Shown: positions 27,260 to 35,875 of the stretch, one piece after another
Numbering within the stretch: position 1 is the stretch's first letter
Layout of the letters: each line of letters opens with the position of its first letter
Assembly (NCBI GenBank): GCA_020073005.1
Contig: JAIQFX010000054.1
Location: 1 to 35,875, forward strand
Direction: 5' to 3'
Length of the DNA stretch: 35,875 bases
DNA from: Terriglobia bacterium
GTDB lineage: Bacteria; Acidobacteriota; Vicinamibacteria; Vicinamibacterales; CAVVIG01
Program-made: the position numbers and the translations under genes
The notes under the pieces: model-generated
Told to the model about the DNA's origin: nothing
What the model saw: the letters and a program-made list of their open reading frames with translations, nothing else
Databases searched by the model: none

Positions 27260-27588
27260 GATTCCTCCCTGTGCCGCCTCACGGCTGTCTGTCTGGCGCC
27301 GCGCTTTCGACGGATGACTTGCCAGGACGCAAGCGTCGTGCCCGGGAAATTGGCCCGCTCATCCGCAACGAGAGCACGCGGCCCGACTTCATCACAGTGA
27401 ACGTAGCGTCGGCATGAGATGTGCTCTGGAACACGATCGCGGGCTGCATCGCGTTCCAGAAAGAAGAACATCATGCGTCCTCATCGTCGCCGGCCCTGAC
27501 GGAATCCCGGACACCGACGGGGCTTCGCGATCTTCTCTCCCGTTGCGGTGGTCGTCGTGGCCAACCACGGACAAAGGGAGATAAACCC
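27260..27588. other. Intergenic region with an imperfect inverted repeat
   Basis: No gene is supported in this 329-base gap. It holds the ribosome binding sites of both flanking divergent genes. An inverted repeat lies at 27426-27459: CTGGAAC-a-CGAT and ATCG-c-GTTCCAG around a 10-base loop. It could be an operator or RNA hairpin for the alpha/beta hydrolase. Confidence 0.5.
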
Positions 27589-28524
27589 ATGTCTCACGCA
27601 CCATCTACTTTCAAGACTCCGGAAGGTGAAGCCGCGTTTCTGGCTGCGTATGACGCGGCGATGAAATTGTGGCCTGTTCCATATACAGAGATGGACCTTC
27701 CGAGTCAGTTTGGGACGACGCATGTTGTCATCAGTGGTCAGAAAGATGGCCCACCGCTGGTGCTGTTGCACGGGTATATGGCGACATCGACGATGTGGTC
27801 GCCCAACATTGCCGATTTCAGCAGGGACTATCGCGTCTATGCCATCGACGTCATGGGGCAGCCGAGCAAGAGCATTCCCAGGGAACCGATACAAGATGCG
27901 GCAGATTACACTGCGTGGCTGACCGCGACCTTGGACGGACTGCACCTCGACCGCATTTCTCTCGTGGGCATGTCTTACGGTGGGTGGCTCGCGCTCAACT
28001 TCGCGGTCGCCTCGCCCGAGCGTGTTCAGAGGCTTGTGCTGCTGTCTCCGGGCGGAGGTTTCATTCCGGTAGCCAGACAGTTCAGCCTGCGCGGGATGCT
28101 GATGGTGTTCTTCCCGACACGCTTCATGGTGAACTCGTTCATGGGCTGGCTGGGATTCACGCACAGACCCGGTGAGACGGATGGCCGGCGCGTGCTCGAG
28201 CTGATGTATTTCGGTCTGAGGCATTTTCGAGTGCCGCAAGAGACGTTGCGTGTCATGCCCACCATGTTCTCTGACGACCAACTGCGGGCGATGCGCGTCC
28301 CGACATTGCTGCTCATAGGCGACCACGAAGTCATGTACGACCCGGCAACGGCCTTGGCTCGGGCGCGTCAGCTTTTTCCTGACCTCCAAGGCGAACTGGT
28401 GCCACGGTCCAGTCACGACATGTGCTTCAACCAACATCGAATCGTGGACGCGCGGGTCCTCGACTTCCTGAAGACGACACGCACTGATGATCACAGGAAG
28501 ACTGCGGAACGTTCCGTGGTGTAG
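27589..28524 (+). CDS. Alpha/beta-fold hydrolase
   Basis: I chose ATG 27589, preceded by AAAGGGAG at 11 bases; the longer frame from 27421 crosses a hairpin. The 311-residue protein has the alpha/beta hydrolase core: HGYMATSTMW as oxyanion region, GMSYGG with Ser129, Asp245 in LLIGDHEVMYD and His276 in SSHDMCF. The lid region (160-215) is moderately hydrophobic. The substrate cannot be read from the sequence. Hand counting the first 130 bases gives about 52% G+C, clearly below the tad genes, so recent transfer is possible. No mobile element is seen. Confidence 0.87.
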   Translation: MSHAPSTFKTPEGEAAFLAAYDAAMKLWPVPYTEMDLPSQFGTTHVVISGQKDGPPLVLLHGYMATSTMWSPNIADFSRDYRVYAIDVMGQPSKSIPREPIQDAADYTAWLTATLDGLHLDRISLVGMSYGGWLALNFAVASPERVQRLVLLSPGGGFIPVARQFSLRGMLMVFFPTRFMVNSFMGWLGFTHRPGETDGRRVLELMYFGLRHFRVPQETLRVMPTMFSDDQLRAMRVPTLLLIGDHEVMYDPATALARARQLFPDLQGELVPRSSHDMCFNQHRIVDARVLDFLKTTRTDDHRKTAERSVV

Positions 28525-28544: not shown

Positions 28545-29132
28545 ATGCCGTCGCTCGCCGTCTACGCGTGGCCGTACGGGCTGTTCTTCTGGGCCGTGAT
28601 CTTCTGGGCGTTCGCACCGGAGTTTCGCATCATCTCGAGGAAGACCGAACCGTTGACGAGCGCGCAGGACGCCGGTTCGAAGGGATTGATTGCGATCGGC
28701 CAGGGCCTGGCGATGTTCGCGGCCTTCGCGATCGCGATAACCGTCCCGTCGGCGACACTCCCGTATCGCTTGTGGCTATTCTGGGCGGGCCTCGCGGCGA
28801 TGATCGGGGGCAGCCTGCTGCGGCGCCACTGCTGGCGGATGCTCGGCGCGAGCTTCACGGGCGCCGTGATCGTCAGGCCGGATCAACTGATCGTGGACCG
28901 CGGCGCCTACCGCTACGTCCGCCATCCGTCATACACGGCCGGTGCGATCCTCTTCTTCGGCATCGGACTCGCCCTCGCCAACTGGATCAGCGTGGCCGTG
29001 CTGATGGGCGCCGTCCTGATCGTCTATGGCTATCGCGTCGGCGTCGAGGAGCGGGCGCTCCTTGCGACGCGTGGCGATTCGTACCGAAGCTATATGAGCC
29101 GCACGAAACGGTTTGTGCCGTTCTTGTTCTAG
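28545..29132 (+). CDS. Second ICMT-family membrane methyltransferase
   Basis: This 195-residue protein has about four to five membrane segments and the family motif RGAYRYVRHPSYTAGAILFF, followed by a membrane segment and the closing EERALLATRGDSYRSYMSRT. It resembles the protein at 8048-8659 in layout, but the sequence is clearly diverged. The start lies 20 bases after the alpha/beta hydrolase stop, so the two may be cotranscribed. The substrate is unknown. Confidence 0.82.
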   Translation: MPSLAVYAWPYGLFFWAVIFWAFAPEFRIISRKTEPLTSAQDAGSKGLIAIGQGLAMFAAFAIAITVPSATLPYRLWLFWAGLAAMIGGSLLRRHCWRMLGASFTGAVIVRPDQLIVDRGAYRYVRHPSYTAGAILFFGIGLALANWISVAVLMGAVLIVYGYRVGVEERALLATRGDSYRSYMSRTKRFVPFLF

Positions 29133-29396: not shown

Positions 29397-29438
29397 CGAC
29401 TAACGACTAACGACTAACGACCAACGACCAACGACTAC
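29397..29438 (-). repeat. Tandem heptanucleotide repeat (TAGTCGT-like)
   Basis: Six units on the plus strand read cgactaa (three), cgaccaa (two) and cgactac. On the minus strand the array starts with the TAG stop codon of the aminotransferase, so it occupies the transcript's 3' end between stop and terminator. The unit differs from the array at 8668-8713, but length and position at a gene edge are alike. Confidence 0.85.
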
Positions 29439-30637
29439 TTGTCGCCGGCCGAGGTTTTCGCCGGCGCTGCCATGATCTCCTTGAACGCGGCCATGAACTT
29501 GTCCATCTCGGCCTGCGTGCCGACCGAGACGCGCAGATGCTGCGTCATCGGCGCAAACGGCCGGCCGACCAGCACGTCACGCTTCTGGAACTCAGGCGCG
29601 ACTTCGCTCACCTCACGCTTGAGACCGACCATGAAGAAGTTGGCCTCCGACGGCAGCACTTCGTGGCCGAGCGCCTTCAGTTTCGCGATGGTGTCGTCGC
29701 GGACCTGCTTGTTCAGTGCCTTGGTCTTCGCCTGTCCGGCCGTGTCCTTGACGGACGCCGCGCCACCGAACTTCACCGTAATGGACTGGCTGCCGGTCGT
29801 GAAGGTGCGGACCTTCCGGATGAGCTCGGGCGGCGCGATGCCGTAGCCCAGGCGCATGGCGGCAAGCGCCGCGATCTTGGAGAACGTACGGCAGACGATG
29901 ACGGGCCGTCCCTCGAGCACGTACTTCATCGACGACTCGTAGTCCGGGCTGTCGACGAAGTGGTGGTACGCCTCGTCGATGAGCACCGGCATGTCCTTCG
30001 GGATGCCGTCGAGCAGCTGCTTGATCTGAGCCTTCGGGACGATCATCCCCGTCGGGTTGTTCGGGTTGACGATGTAGATGAACCCGATTTCCGCGGCGCG
30101 CTTGTTCGCGATGTCGATGATCGCGGGGATGTTCTGCGTGTAGTCCTTGTTCAGCGGTACTCTGATCGTTTCCCGCCCGATCTGCGCCGCCTTCGAGTAG
30201 GGGTCGCCGTAGGTCGGGTTGACGCCCAGCACCTTCTTCTTCGGATCGCCGATCAGCATCGCAATGGTGATGGAACTCAACAGCTCGCCCGACCCGCAGC
30301 CGAAGATGATGTTTTCTGCCTTGACGCCATGCAGCTCTTGAATGGCCTGGGACAATCCGCCGTCCGGCGCGCCGTAGCGGTTCGCCCATTCCCAGGCCTT
30401 GGGATCGTCCATCGCCGCCCTGACGGCGGGCGGCACGCCGTACGGATTCTCGTTGTTGTTGATCTTGGCGACCTTGGTGAGATCCACGAGTTGCCGCGGG
30501 CCGCGGCCACCCTGGCCCGGCACGCCGGCGCGGCCGCCGCGGCCCTGCTGCGCGAAGAGATCCACGTCCGGGCCGACGCTGATATAACCGAGCGCGGCGG
30601 CGATGCCCCCTACGAACCTGCGGCGTGAAACTGCCAT
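29435..30637 (-). CDS. Tat-exported HisC-like PLP aminotransferase
   Basis: The start at 30637 has GGAGGG six bases upstream and gives a Tat signal: SRRRFVGG followed by a moderate hydrophobic stretch (IAAALGYISVG). A Gly/Arg-rich linker (QGRGGRAGVPGQGGRGPRQ) then leads into a class I/II aminotransferase fold similar to histidinol-phosphate aminotransferase. It has NENPYGVPPAVRAAM, PTYGDPYSKAA, Asn194 in NPNNPTG, Asp221 and Tyr224 in LIDEAYHHFV, and the Schiff-base Lys254 in CRTFSKIAALAAMRLGYGIA. All cofactor contacts seem intact. Cytosolic HisC needs no export signal, so a periplasmic role and a different substrate are likely. No his genes are near. Confidence 0.87.
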   Translation of the reverse strand: MAVSRRRFVGGIAAALGYISVGPDVDLFAQQGRGGRAGVPGQGGRGPRQLVDLTKVAKINNNENPYGVPPAVRAAMDDPKAWEWANRYGAPDGGLSQAIQELHGVKAENIIFGCGSGELLSSITIAMLIGDPKKKVLGVNPTYGDPYSKAAQIGRETIRVPLNKDYTQNIPAIIDIANKRAAEIGFIYIVNPNNPTGMIVPKAQIKQLLDGIPKDMPVLIDEAYHHFVDSPDYESSMKYVLEGRPVIVCRTFSKIAALAAMRLGYGIAPPELIRKVRTFTTGSQSITVKFGGAASVKDTAGQAKTKALNKQVRDDTIAKLKALGHEVLPSEANFFMVGLKREVSEVAPEFQKRDVLVGRPFAPMTQHLRVSVGTQAEMDKFMAAFKEIMAAPAKTSAGDK

Positions 30638-30779
30638 ACACCCTCCGTGAAGGAAGCTGAACAACTGCACGGGTATTCTAGCGCCGGGATACGAGAGTGG
30701 GGCGACAATCCTGTGAGACGGCCGCCCCGGTTACGAGATGTACCGGAGCCGGAAAACCCTATTGTGTTCTGGTGCGGGC

Positions 30780-32393
30780 TCATTTCAAGACGACTTTGCG
30801 ATAGCCCCCGGCGATCAGTGCCGACACATCCACGACGATGCGTGGCAGGCCGAGGCCGCCGGGATACACCAGGTAGCGAGGCTCCCATTGCGGGTGAAAT
30901 TTCTGCTTGAACGCCCGAAGACCACGGAAGTGATAAAAGGCTTCGCCGTGGGCGTACAGGAACGATCCCACGCGGCTCCAGAACGGCGCCACGGGTGACT
31001 GCTCCAAACCGGAGAGCGGCGCCACGCCAAGCGAGAACCATCGGTAGCCGTGCGTCTTGCCCCAGGCCATCACGTGCACCAGGAGGGCCTCCATCGTTTC
31101 CGGCGGGGCGGCGCGGGTATGGCGAATGAGATCGGTCGCGAGCTCGAAGCGCTGGGACCCCGCCCAGAGGTTGGCGAACGCGATGATCTCGCCGTCGCGT
31201 TCCATCACCGCGATGTCGAAGCGTGACAGATAGTCGGGACTGAAGGAGCCCAGCGAGAAGCCCTTCTCGCCACCGGCTTTCGCGGCCAGCCATTCGTCCG
31301 ACACGGCTCGAAGGCGGTCCATCATCGCGGCGGTTTCCTCCCGCGGGATCACCCGGAACGTCACCCCGGATCGCTCCAGACGACGACGATTCTGCCGGTG
31401 TTTGCTCCAGTGGCCGCCCGCGAGCGTGAACGACGTCAGGTCGACTCTCGCTTCTTCGCCGAGTTTGACAAACGCCAACCCGAAATCCGCGTAGTGATGC
31501 AGGAAGTCTTGCCGGACTTCGTAGAACACCGGTACCCCGTTGAAGTCGTGGCACTTCTCCAGAAAGCCGCGAATCAAGTCGGGCACCCGGTCGGCCGGAC
31601 CCGCCGGATCGCCGAGCGCGACCCAGGTGCGCCCTTGCACGCCGTACATGACGAACCCCTGCCGCTCGTCGTCGAACAACACCGCTTTGTCGCGCAGGAA
31701 CGCCAGAGATGGAAACGTCCACGGCTGCCGCTCGATGATCGCGCTCACGGCGTCGAGATCGGCCTCGGTGGGTTCAGCGACTTCGTGGGCGGCTGCTGCC
31801 AGCAGCCGCGCGAGCGCCACGAGCAGCAGCAACACGGCTGAACCGATCGACCCGCGCAGGAATCGCGACGCTTGCGCGTCCAGTCCGAATTGCCACCAGA
31901 GCTCGTTCGAGTACTCCACGTGCCGAAATGCGAAAAATCCGATCCAGACGGAGGCCCCGAGCGCGCCGGCGATCGCGACAAGCCAGCCGGTCGAAAAACG
32001 GGCGTCGAAGAACGCGGCCCGTCGATTGAACGATGGCCTCGCCTGCCAGAACACGAGCAGGACAAGCGTCAGCGCCAGGGCCTCTTCGTAGTGAATGCCT
32101 TTGAGGAGGGATGCGACGATGCCCAGGGTGATGCAGGTCAGCGCCAGTAGGTAGGCGGCATCGAGACGTCGGGCCAGACCGTGCGACAGCACCAGCAGCG
32201 CGGCGCCCACGACGCTGCCGATGAAATGCGACACTTCGATGACGCCGATCGGGAGCACGCGGGCCACAAGGGACAGCCGTGCGGCGGCCGAGGGGGTGGC
32301 GCCGGAAACGAGCAGGATGGCCCCGCTCAGAAACGTGGAGATCGAGAGCACACGCGGCGCGATCTGGTCGGTCGCGCGGCGCAACCCGCTCAT
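30780..32393 (-). CDS. Short MprF/LpiA-like phosphatidylglycerol aminoacyltransferase
   Basis: The 537-residue protein has about six membrane segments in residues 15-210 (for example VIEVSHFIGSVVGAALLVLS and WLVAIAGALGASVWIGFFAF) and a cytosolic DUF2156 domain from about residue 215 to the end, with GRTWVALGDPAGP, KLGEEARVDL and WSKHRQNRRRLERSGVTFRV. A last stretch (YHFRGLRAFKQKFHPQWEPR) matches the MprF C-terminus. Full MprF has about 14 membrane segments and 840 residues; most of the flippase half is missing here, as in LpiA/AlaPGS-like short forms. It probably transfers an amino acid from tRNA to phosphatidylglycerol. It starts 18 bases after an AcvB-like gene. Confidence 0.83.
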   Translation of the reverse strand: MSGLRRATDQIAPRVLSISTFLSGAILLVSGATPSAAARLSLVARVLPIGVIEVSHFIGSVVGAALLVLSHGLARRLDAAYLLALTCITLGIVASLLKGIHYEEALALTLVLLVFWQARPSFNRRAAFFDARFSTGWLVAIAGALGASVWIGFFAFRHVEYSNELWWQFGLDAQASRFLRGSIGSAVLLLLVALARLLAAAAHEVAEPTEADLDAVSAIIERQPWTFPSLAFLRDKAVLFDDERQGFVMYGVQGRTWVALGDPAGPADRVPDLIRGFLEKCHDFNGVPVFYEVRQDFLHHYADFGLAFVKLGEEARVDLTSFTLAGGHWSKHRQNRRRLERSGVTFRVIPREETAAMMDRLRAVSDEWLAAKAGGEKGFSLGSFSPDYLSRFDIAVMERDGEIIAFANLWAGSQRFELATDLIRHTRAAPPETMEALLVHVMAWGKTHGYRWFSLGVAPLSGLEQSPVAPFWSRVGSFLYAHGEAFYHFRGLRAFKQKFHPQWEPRYLVYPGGLGLPRIVVDVSALIAGGYRKVVLK

Positions 32394-32411
32394 GCGACCG
32401 TCATCGACGCG

Positions 32412-33170
32412 TCACCGCGGCGCGTTCGCCTGGATCCATGCGATAGCCTCCAGCAGGCGCTGGTCGAACTCGGAGAGGTTGTCGCTGAATCGATGGTCGG
32501 AGGCCCTCACGACCCACAGCCGCTTCGGTTGCGCGGCATGCTGCAGGACGCGTTCAATCTCAGCCAGCGGCACGTATTCGTCGTGGGTCGAATGAATCGC
32601 CGCGATCGGAATCGGCGCGACGTCCGACACGATCGCCGCCACGCTGAAGGTCGGTTCGTTCGGGATCTTGTGGGTCAGATAGGTGATCGCATCCTTCCAG
32701 CGCCAACCCAGCTCGTTCAGATCGGGCAAGCCCACACCGACGATCCCCCGGATGGCGGCTTTCGTGCGTGGATGGGTGGTCGCGAGTACGGAGAGGCCTG
32801 CGCCTTCCGAGACGCCAACGAGAATCGGCCTTCTGGCGCCAACGCCGGCCGCCGCCTGCAGCAGCGTGCGGTAGTCGCCCGGCTCGTCGGCGGCACGCAG
32901 GGTCGTGGGTCCCGAGGTGAAGCTCGCGAGATACGCTTTGACGTCGAAGCCCGTGACGGCAAAACCTCGGGCCGCAAGCAGCTGCGCGACGTGCGGTCCG
33001 AGGTGAATCCAGCCGCCGTCCCCACTCGACACGATGACGGGCTCGCCAGCTGGGGGGCCGTACACGTACAGCGTCTGCTGGCGTCCGCGTAGTGTGATGG
33101 TCCGCGGAACCTGCGCCGACCCGGAGATCGTGGCCGCGATCACGGCAAGACAGAGGAGCGACCGTCTCAT
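32412..33170 (-). CDS. AcvB/VirJ-like hydrolase, probable lipid-aminoacyl removal enzyme
   Basis: I chose the start at 33170, which gives a signal peptide (MRRSLLCLAVIAATISGSAQ); a longer start at 33215 adds 15 residues without improving it. The 252-residue protein is an alpha/beta hydrolase of the VirJ/AcvB family: IVSSGDGGWIHLGPHVAQLL, VTGFDVKAYLASF, GVSEGAG with Ser121, Asp197 in IHSTHDEYVPL and His226 in ASDHRFSDN. In Agrobacterium, AcvB hydrolyses lysyl-phosphatidylglycerol made by LpiA, and the two genes are adjacent, as here. By that parallel this is the hydrolase half of the pair, in the periplasm. Confidence 0.78.
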   Translation of the reverse strand: MRRSLLCLAVIAATISGSAQVPRTITLRGRQQTLYVYGPPAGEPVIVSSGDGGWIHLGPHVAQLLAARGFAVTGFDVKAYLASFTSGPTTLRAADEPGDYRTLLQAAAGVGARRPILVGVSEGAGLSVLATTHPRTKAAIRGIVGVGLPDLNELGWRWKDAITYLTHKIPNEPTFSVAAIVSDVAPIPIAAIHSTHDEYVPLAEIERVLQHAAQPKRLWVVRASDHRFSDNLSEFDQRLLEAIAWIQANAPR

Positions 33171-33240
33171 CCTACAGATGCGGCTGGCGCAACCCACGGC
33201 GCCGGCCGAACTCATTGAGCGAGTCTACTTCCTTGACACG

Positions 33241-33482: not shown

Positions 33483-34157
33483 ATGGACATCGAACGACGC
33501 GCCGGACGGATCGTCGGCGCCCTCTTCCTCGCGCAGATGGCGGGCAGCGCGGTCCTGAATGGCGGCCTCGAGGCGCCGCTCTTCGGTGAACCGGGCTTCC
33601 TTGTGAACGCCGCGCCGCACGCGCTGCAGCTCGGCGCCTCCGCCCTGTTCGGCCTCGCCCTCGGCGCTCTCTTTACCGCCGTCGCCGTCACGGCATTCCC
33701 GATCGTCCGCGCGCACAGCGAGGCCCTCGCCCTGTGGCTGTTCGCGCTCGGCGCGGTGGGCCTCGCCCTCGCGGCCGTCGAGCACGCCAGCGTGATGTCG
33801 ATGGTGTCGCTCAGTCACGCCTACGCCAACGCCGCCACCGGCGCTCGCGATCAGTTCCAGGCGCTGCGCGGCGTCGTGGCAGCGGCGCGCAACTGGGCGC
33901 ACTATTTCGCCCGCCTCCTCGATGGGACGACGCTGCTCGTCTTCTACCTCGCGCTGTTCCGCTTCACCCTCGTGCCGCGTGCGCTGGCCCTCCTCGGTCT
34001 CCTCGCGACGTTGCTGCAGATCTCCGGGATCGCGGTGGTGTTCTTCGGGCACGACGTGGTGTTTCCGCTGCTCGCGCCGCTGGGCGTGGCGCAGCTGGCG
34101 CTGTCGGTGTGGCTGCTGACCAAAGGGTTCGCCCGCCAGGCGGACGCCGCGTCCTGA
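33483..34157 (+). CDS. DUF4386-like membrane protein
   Basis: The 224-residue protein has about six membrane segments and begins MDIERRAGRIVGALFLAQMA, typical of DUF4386 proteins. Other segments include SALFGLALGALFTAVAVTAF, LWLFALGAVGLALAAVEHAS, TTLLVFYLALFRF and LGVAQLALSVWLL. The family has no known function. GGAGA lies eight bases before the ATG. The 3' end is followed by a strong hairpin. Confidence 0.75.
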   Translation: MDIERRAGRIVGALFLAQMAGSAVLNGGLEAPLFGEPGFLVNAAPHALQLGASALFGLALGALFTAVAVTAFPIVRAHSEALALWLFALGAVGLALAAVEHASVMSMVSLSHAYANAATGARDQFQALRGVVAAARNWAHYFARLLDGTTLLVFYLALFRFTLVPRALALLGLLATLLQISGIAVVFFGHDVVFPLLAPLGVAQLALSVWLLTKGFARQADAAS

Positions 34158-34297: not shown

Positions 34298-35875
34298 CTA
34301 TAGGCGCCGCAGGGCAACAATCGGAGCGAGGCGAAGGATTCGTCGTGTCGCCAGAAACACGGCGATCGCGGCGAGTCCGCCACAAAGCGCCGTCACCTCG
34401 AACCACATTACGGGGCGGACGATGCTGAGCGGCGTGAGCTCCGCAAACAGCGAGTACGTCAGACCGACCGTGATCGCGGCGCCCGTCGCGAGCGCCGCGA
34501 CTATCAACTTGCCCTCGCGCGCGAGCACCATGGCGAACACGCGCCGCGGCGCTGCGCCGAGCGCCATCCGGATACCGAACTCCCGCGTCCGCTGCGCGAC
34601 CGATTGGCTGATCACGCCGAACACGCCGCTTGCCGCCAGCAGCAACGCCACCAGGCTGAACATCTCGAACATGCTCATCAGGACTCCGCCCGCTCCGGCA
34701 TCCCGGAATTCCAGGCTCTCGCTGGCGACTCGAGGTTGCGGACGCCGCACATCGGATGGAACCACGGCCGCTGATGCGATCGCATGAATCACGACATGCG
34801 GATCGCCGGGGACGCGCGCCAGCAGGACCGCGTCGCCCGCCGTCGGGGGTACGTAGGGCACGTAGACTTCCGGAGGAACCAGTCCGGCGCGGGACAGCGC
34901 GCCGTAGTTCATGACGTCGCGGCTCACGCCGATCACGATCGCCGTCGCCGTCGTTCGCTCGCTGATACGCACGCGCATGCCGAGCGCGTCCCCATTCGGC
35001 GCGATCGCGCGCGCCGCGCTCTCGCTGAGCACGACGACGCCGGTGGCCGCCCCGACTTCGGTTCGCGCGAACGATCGTCCGCGCAGGACAGGTACGCCGA
35101 GCGTGTCGAACAGCGACGCCTCGGCAGGGATGCGCGACACGAGCGCGGCCGCGCCAGAGTCGGTCTCTATCTTCGCGGCGCGGCTCCGGACAATGTTGCC
35201 GCCGGGCATCACGGACGCGATCGTCACGCCTGTGACGCCCGGAACCGCCAAGACCTGCTCACGCACGGTGCGGACGTCGGCGGGCCGCACGTCGACCGAC
35301 ACCACGTGTTCCGCAGGAAACAGCGGCGTCGCGCCCCGCAGCTCTCCGAAGAGCGTGAAGATCATCGCGGCGAAGATCACGAGGCCGACTGCGGATCCCA
35401 TCTCGAAGAAGACGACCAGGTCGCGCGCGCCGTAGCCCGCGATGTGTACGCGATACGTCGCGGGCACGCCGTTGAGCGCCGCGGCGATGTCCCGCCGCGA
35501 CAGCCGCACGGCCGGCAGGGTGCCGAAGAGGACGCAGGATGCCATCGTCGCAACGAGCGCGAGCGGCAGCAGGTCGAAGCCGGCTGCGACGCGCTCGGCC
35601 AGGAGCGGCTGTTCCGCCGCCAGAGCGGAGGAGACGACGCGAAGGATGGCAACCGCGAGGCCGCAGCCGATCGCGCCGCCGCCCGCCGCAAGCAGCGCGT
35701 TTTCAGTGAACAACTGCCGGACGATGTGCAAGCGCGTGGCGCCGAGCGCGCGGCGCACGCTGAACTCCGCGTCGCGCTCGATGCCGCGCGCCATCAGCAT
35801 GCACGAGACGTTCACGCAGCCGATCAGCAGCAGGACGAGCGCGGGTCCGAGCGTGAACGCGAACCCGGTCGTCGC
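34298..35875 (-). CDS. ADOP-type FtsX/MacB permease (N-terminus cut by the window edge)
   Basis: The frame is open to the right edge, so the N-terminal part is missing; about 525 residues are visible. They begin inside the first FtsX unit (GPALVLLLIGCVNVSCMLMA, then RRALGATRLHIVRQLFTENA), followed by a second periplasmic core (near visible residues 145-385) and a second FtsX unit (LVALLLAASGVFGVISQSVA, RTREFGIRMALGAAPRRVFA, and an RRILRLAPIVALRRL end). Two FtsX units without an ATPase domain fit the acidobacterial duplicated orphan permease (ADOP) family. No ABC ATPase gene is in view. The role is unclear; export of a macrolide or lipid-like substrate is the usual guess. Confidence 0.88.
   Translation of the reverse strand, partial: ATTGFAFTLGPALVLLLIGCVNVSCMLMARGIERDAEFSVRRALGATRLHIVRQLFTENALLAAGGGAIGCGLAVAILRVVSSALAAEQPLLAERVAAGFDLLPLALVATMASCVLFGTLPAVRLSRRDIAAALNGVPATYRVHIAGYGARDLVVFFEMGSAVGLVIFAAMIFTLFGELRGATPLFPAEHVVSVDVRPADVRTVREQVLAVPGVTGVTIASVMPGGNIVRSRAAKIETDSGAAALVSRIPAEASLFDTLGVPVLRGRSFARTEVGAATGVVVLSESAARAIAPNGDALGMRVRISERTTATAIVIGVSRDVMNYGALSRAGLVPPEVYVPYVPPTAGDAVLLARVPGDPHVVIHAIASAAVVPSDVRRPQPRVASESLEFRDAGAGGVLMSMFEMFSLVALLLAASGVFGVISQSVAQRTREFGIRMALGAAPRRVFAMVLAREGKLIVAALATGAAITVGLTYSLFAELTPLSIVRPVMWFEVTALCGGLAAIAVFLATRRILRLAPIVALRRL

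Follow-up and report, generated by a model that had tools for sequence, protein, structure and literature searches.

Control of aminoacyl-phosphatidylglycerol (aminoacyl-PG) by a synthase and a hydrolase working together is known from Proteobacteria. In Pseudomonas aeruginosa, PA0920 and PA0919 are such a pair, an alanyl-PG synthase and its hydrolase. Agrobacterium tumefaciens has LpiA-AcvB, a single operon in which a synthase and a periplasmic hydrolase control lysyl-PG (Lys-PG), as excerpts of PMC13197417 describe it. According to the same excerpts, AcvB binds LpiA and requires several acidic residues, Asp271, Ser336 and His433 of AcvB have described functional roles, LpiA is inactive as D750N, and Asp340 is conserved in AcvB, VirJ, AtvA, PA0919 (named there as an AcvB homologue) and PP_1201. 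VirJ of octopine Ti plasmids is a single-domain Lys-PG hydrolase with a signal sequence (excerpts of PMC13135905).

The synthase side of these systems is modular. MprF of R. tropici has Subdomain 1 (TM1-8, Leu24-Arg325), Subdomain 2 (TM9-14, Ser334-Arg530) and a synthase domain (Pro539-Gly860). When Staphylococcus aureus MprF is stripped of its first eight segments, Lys-PG synthesis stays intact, and shortening the protein further abolishes it; without the N-terminal part, most Lys-PG is not exported efficiently and peptide resistance is poor (excerpts of PMC2774229). Clostridium perfringens MprF1, which is active in lipid synthesis, naturally consists of just the catalytic domain and the six C-terminal helices, and fusions of DedA to an MprF synthase have already been mentioned in print, with a citation to Roney and Rudner 2023 (both in excerpts of PMC11980842).

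The window, by which we mean the whole stretch of 35,875 nucleotides that we analysed, carries two minus-strand ORFs belonging to these families. The hydrolase (32412-33170, 252 aa) lies upstream and the synthase (30780-32393, 537 aa) downstream, with an 18-base spacer between them (32394-32411). The hydrolase length is counted from an inner ATG; from the first ATG, at 33215, it would be 267 aa. Each protein is the sole match to its own Pfam family in the genome. The original prediction of an MprF/LpiA-like synthase and a VirJ-superfamily hydrolase on one strand, 18 bases apart, is borne out by the ORF coordinates and by the Pfam, NCBIfam and PDB matches. Its proposal that the two genes make and remove aminoacyl-PG is still the best reading of the sequence. 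We put the probability at roughly 0.7 that they form a two-gene unit of this kind, with a synthase that has lost its flippase and a hydrolase that is periplasmic and not AcvB.

The next gene on the same strand, an aminotransferase (29435-30670, minus strand), begins 109 bases past the synthase. Its product resembles histidinol-phosphate aminotransferases, with the best NCBIfam models all under their cut-offs; its N-terminus is twin-arginine-like (SRRRFVGG) and runs on into a stretch rich in Gly and Arg. The neighbour upstream of the hydrolase encodes a DUF4386 protein (33483-34157, plus strand). A promoter scan returned a single promoter-like site (30788-30761) and none within or upstream of the hydrolase, and terminator-like sites numbered 2 against 2.3 expected; these scans settle nothing about co-transcription of the pair. 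Further out lie an alpha/beta hydrolase (27586-28521, plus strand) followed by an ICMT/PEMT-like methyltransferase (28545-29132, plus strand), possibly a second lipid-related pair, and an ADOP-type FtsX/MacB permease (34298-35875, minus strand) truncated by the contig end.

The synthase is readily placed. It matches PF09924 at 3e-89 (299.4 bits, cut-off 27.5), which marks the cytosolic LPG_synthase_C domain at residues 220-510 (30864-31736), and the NCBIfam MprF model NF033480 at 649.6 bits (cut-off 600), covering positions 314-840 of 841. Its PDB matches by sequence are LpiA/MprF chains, the best at 1.9e-121, and in the alignment its residues 2-536 correspond to 334-868 of LpiA chain 6lvf_B. 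Since the match starts at LpiA 334, the R. tropici domain limits indicate that Subdomain 1 is absent and the remainder present. The protein has no match to PF03706, the flippase Subdomain 1 (TM1-8), and an HMM made from the MprF flippase halves of six relatives matches full-length MprFs and none of the window's frames. The earlier remark that the synthase lacks most of the flippase half was correct and can be put more exactly: Subdomain 1 is gone. The six-helix bundle beside the synthase domain (TM9-14, Subdomain 2) is present by alignment to LpiA, with hydrophobic stretches in residues 11-207 (31773-32366), although a hydropathy scan does not resolve the six helices one by one. By count, D421 falls at Asp751 of chain 7f47_A. 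It is invariant in 6 aligned rows and would correspond to LpiA Asp750.

The upstream protein is a VirJ-superfamily alpha/beta hydrolase, predicted to be a periplasmic aminoacyl-PG hydrolase. Its N-terminus, MRRSLLCLAVIAATISGSAQ (33111-33170), looks by eye like a signal peptide, with a hydropathy stretch at residues 4-22. PF06057 (VirJ) matches at 28.1 bits (cut-off 22) over profile positions 4-90 of 191, the first half only, and the best PDB match listed by sequence is AcvB (9xhm, 1.5e-7). A profile of the hydrolase family (17 rows) aligned to AcvB with probabilities of 98.6 for the C-domain and 99.1 for the N-domain, and to one group of single-domain relatives with 99.9; the one control, an unrelated alpha/beta hydrolase from the window, gave 16.4. 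Alignment puts S121 (codon 32808-32810), the nucleophile of the GVSEGAG motif, at AcvB Ser336, H226 (32493-32495) at His433, and D51 (33018-33020), in the SGDGGW motif, at Asp271. D197 (32580-32582) is a candidate for the third member of a Ser-Asp-His triad and has no counterpart in the aligned AcvB C-domains. All four residues are invariant across 15 relatives. Further motifs are ELGWRW, HDE[YF] and HRF. An AlphaFold model, computed with two sequences as input, is of low quality (pLDDT 57.1, pTM 0.65) and carries no weight; Foldseek with that model returned generic alpha/beta hydrolases and no AcvB among the best 50 matches listed. Glu153 sits in the column of AcvB Asp370, the residue associated with the lysine head group, and is Glu in 13 of 17 lineage rows, in a region where the alignment is uncertain. 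We set aside the hint of a basic amino acid as substrate as too weak. The invariant W156 and W158 map to the same loop region as AcvB Trp378/Leu379, in different columns.

How close is this protein to AcvB? Aligned with the C-domains of acidobacterial AcvB, it shares about 19% identity. At the position of AcvB Asp340, four residues after the nucleophile, it has Gly125; the lineage has Gly in 16 of 17 rows and Ala in one, and each of the 19 AcvB C-domains compared from acidobacteria keeps an acid there, Asp or Glu. When 73 VirJ-type domains are placed in a tree, the lineage forms one group (support only 85/49, with 92% of 200 bootstraps) that is not part of the clade of AcvB C-domains (33 rows, support 100/100); the experimentally characterised proteins are absent from this tree and are linked to it through the conserved Asp340. 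Because it falls outside that clade and has no Asp340 equivalent, we do not file the hydrolase as AcvB: judged by sequence, it is a VirJ-superfamily lineage of its own. Of the original description as AcvB/VirJ-like, the VirJ superfamily (PF06057) stands and the AcvB identity does not. The genome has no AcvB, and the hydrolase is its only VirJ-family match. As for AcvB itself, many acidobacterial N-domains (those of L085 and L086, for example) retain GYSSGAT as nucleophile motif together with GHGF and an Asp; the N-domain may therefore not be inactive there, unlike in A. tumefaciens.

This separateness gives the strongest rival its case. The hydrolase might act on a different ester, such as aminoacyl-diacylglycerol or an unrelated substrate, and merely share the operon. 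We think this unlikely, but it deserves to be taken seriously. In its favour are the separate clade, the Gly at the Asp340 position together with a Glu at Ser+1 in 16 of 17 members and the extra conserved Asp, the generic Foldseek matches, and the example of LysX, which is described in excerpt as making lysyl-diacylglycerol. The lineage also coexists with a true AcvB. In genome G360 (locus L129, 976-5629, plus strand) a three-gene operon has the order hydrolase of this lineage, full-length MprF, two-domain AcvB. Yet the equivalents of Asp271, Ser336 and His433 are conserved, the protein is homologous to AcvB across most of the domain, and the lineage is strongly associated with the synthase, whatever the architecture of the latter.

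That association was counted in two surveys. Among 347 genomes of the phylum, 161 gave some match to the hydrolase profile, nearly all of them weak; 15 genes in 14 genomes scored 314-385 bits, and the next score was 142. This clean gap, with a single new gene (in G021), shows that few members of the lineage were missed at this level. Thirteen of the 15 adjoin an LPG synthase, a share partly built in, since 14 of the 15 rows from which the profile was made were found adjoining a synthase; the other two (G229, G021) have a synthase on another contig. By Pfam VirJ, 34 of the 347 genomes are carriers, and 31 of these belong to the 37 whose PF09924 match reaches at least 200 bits. In the order (162 genomes, leaving aside frames under 700 aa of G464, G400, G387 and G435), 30 hydrolase genes occur in 29 genomes, and all 29 are among the 37 synthase carriers (Fisher 4e-25, a figure that overstates independence because the genomes are related). 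Nineteen of the 30 genes have a synthase within 2 kb on the same contig, another 2 have it some 6.4 kb away, and for 9 it is on a different contig. Two genomes of the same genus (91% and 85% completeness) lack both genes.

The lineage accompanies synthases of several builds. It stands upstream of full-length MprFs (L074-L077, L105, L129, L130), with full-length MprFs in other arrangements (L072, L073, L084), beside synthases fused to DedA (L068, L069; VTT domain 5e-15 and 3e-15), and with short synthases (the window, L065, L081, and L082, which is cut by the contig end). It thus tracks the synthase in each of three architectures: flippase-bearing, DedA-fused, or with no transporter domain. That relatives carry both genes in this order makes the pairing more than chance. 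In the fusions (L068 7152-9413, plus strand; L069 7138-9345, minus strand; L070 6262-8466, plus strand) a DedA (VTT) domain takes the place of MprF Subdomain 1; in the synthase tree they arise once and their sister clade is made up of transporter-less synthases, and the stretch examined around L070 has no VirJ-type neighbour. Seven other acidobacterial loci (L066, L098-L103) have a different single-domain VirJ upstream of MprF and AcvB downstream. At L101 (1758-2330, plus strand) and L102 (3794-5020, plus strand), DedA-like genes lie directly upstream of the VirJ-type hydrolase, MprF and AcvB. The closest named relative, L105, is labelled Acidobacteria (59% identity), in keeping with the likely acidobacterial origin first suggested. 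Methanosarcina (archaeal) MprFs (L106-L114, L116, L118, L120; n=12) are also among the closest named synthase relatives, at 36-43% identity. The hydrolase lineage is absent from the 12 stretches examined, and in L111 and L120 the synthase match is split across several frames. Our literature search found no paper on a synthase-hydrolase pair in acidobacteria.

Our preferred reading, then, is of a pair that makes and removes aminoacyl-PG. The membrane synthase would, as its family does, work on the cytosolic side and load phosphatidylglycerol with an amino acid taken from aminoacyl-tRNA. The hydrolase, sent to the periplasm if its N-terminus is what it appears to be, would cleave the aminoacyl ester of lipid arriving at the outer leaflet, and the two together would set the lipid level. 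The lipid might reach that leaflet by slow spontaneous flip, or through one of the three PF03706 or six DedA-type proteins that the genome encodes, which are candidates only. We hold to this reading on account of the family matches over cut-offs, the conserved catalytic residues, the co-occurrence, the activity of VirJ and the precedent for six-helix synthesis. Counted against it are Gly125 at Asp340, the half-length Pfam match, the poor model and the low identity to AcvB; the hydrolase genes off the synthase contig (2 of 15 in the phylum, 9 of 30 in the order), the two same-genus genomes without the genes and the draft state of the genome; and a rather long synthase branch and PF03706 proteins that the MprF-flippase HMM does not match.

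The missing transporter shapes what such a pair could do. The genome gave zero matches to the MprF flippase half in a search that had no positive control of its own, the control for the HMM being the full-length MprFs in the fetched stretches of relatives only. We considered the three PF03706 proteins (one gene is cut by a contig end) as MprF-type flippases acting in trans and rejected them, as none was matched by that HMM; at best they are YbhN-like. A role in resistance to cationic peptides, a setting that the original prediction named alongside acid soil, is not expected without another transporter, given that in S. aureus the C-terminal domain with six helices made Lys-PG in full but conferred resistance inefficiently (PMC2774229, in excerpt). 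A more speculative idea, to which we give rather little credence, is that the pair confines the lipid to one leaflet: the flippase-less synthase would supply the inner leaflet only and the hydrolase would clear what leaks to the outer one, the lineage being the constant partner of a synthase whose transporter module (Subdomain 1, DedA or none) is swapped. Were this true, the cell would keep cationic lipid on one side of its membrane.

Where did the short synthase come from? Its closest relatives (L129 at 65% identity, L130, L074-L077, L105) are full-length and sit immediately downstream of a hydrolase of the same lineage. In L129 the hydrolase stop overlaps the MprF start, and from that stop it is 935 bases to the Met aligned with the synthase start of the window, against 18 in the window; the start ...DDGRMSGLRRATDQIAP aligns with ...AARMSALLGRLTDQFTP of L129, an internal Met region. 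The MprFs of the relatives start MTA.. or MSA.., at or close to the hydrolase stop, and the window may retain a remnant of the old start in ATG ACG GTC GCA TGA (32390-32404, minus strand), whose stop overlaps the synthase ATG. In the order survey, the two matches are 24 bases apart in the window and 814-1017 bases apart in the 15 other pairs that lie on one strand within 2 kb with the hydrolase first, which identifies the missing piece as the flippase-coding stretch. A tree of 54 synthases puts the window inside a flippase-bearing group (99/95 with L129, 96/86 with L130, 100/99 for nine rows), on a rather long terminal branch (0.36 against 0.20 for L129). The state "no transporter domain" requires four changes on this tree, at least three of them forced by well-supported branches. 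The tree omits L111, L120, L079 and L133, whose frames are broken or weak, and L057, which has a 567-aa frame with a start resembling those of the short forms; L082 is in the tree and excluded from the counts. With full-length MprFs as closest relatives, in the same hydrolase-then-synthase order, sequence comparison makes the short synthase a secondary, lineage-specific loss and not an ancestral form. By the same comparison, an internal deletion removed Subdomain 1 from a full-length MprF and spared the hydrolase, leaving a short spacer and, within the old gene, an ATG in frame.

Alternatively, the flippase half may be missing because the assembly has a gap there or because a decaying gene recently lost it, the short synthase being an artefact or a gene on its way out. 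The genome is a draft of 5.86 Mb in 179 contigs with contamination 4.63, the short form is known here from the assembly alone and is the only one among those examined in its clade, and the two same-genus genomes lack the locus. We nevertheless judge this improbable: the break coincides with a structural subdomain boundary, both gene ends are intact, the 537-aa frame is open with its residues conserved, and flippase-less synthases occur in other lineages, as the changes forced on the tree attest. As for the idea that the locus mirrors LpiA-AcvB in reversed order, the functional families are broadly the same and AcvB is the hydrolase's best listed PDB match, but its place outside the AcvB clade, its differing motifs and the G360 relative, in which both hydrolase genes flank MprF, show that it is not an AcvB moved upstream and leave an inverted LpiA-AcvB very hard to credit.

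A pair that makes and removes aminoacyl-PG would bring this form of control into what is probably an acidobacterium, through a hydrolase lineage that is not AcvB and that, as far as we have found, has no experimentally tested member. What is new here is that a synthase has naturally lost its transporter half next to a retained hydrolase, of probable aminoacyl-PG function, from a lineage distinct from AcvB. The pair makes three questions testable: does the hydrolase need its substrate in the outer leaflet, could DedA or YbhN-type proteins act in trans, and does aminoacyl-PG have a function in the inner leaflet?

Set beside the known systems, the locus is like LpiA-AcvB of A. tumefaciens in joining an MprF-type synthase to a VirJ-superfamily hydrolase. 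There, a full-length LpiA comes first and a two-domain AcvB second; here, a single-domain hydrolase of another lineage comes first and a synthase without Subdomain 1 second. The hydrolase is like VirJ of the octopine Ti plasmids in being a single-domain member of the superfamily, but VirJ is 46% identical to the C-terminal half of AcvB and, in the excerpted text of PMC13135905, is not beside a synthase. P. aeruginosa PA0919 keeps Asp340 and the window hydrolase does not. C. perfringens MprF1 has the same short build and, in the excerpts, shares its cell with a second, full MprF, whereas the window synthase is the only member of its family in the genome and is paired with a hydrolase. The S. 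aureus protein minus eight helices is, as excerpted, an engineered truncation; the form described here arose by natural, secondary loss. And while the DedA-MprF fusions have replaced the transporter half, this synthase has no transporter domain whatever.
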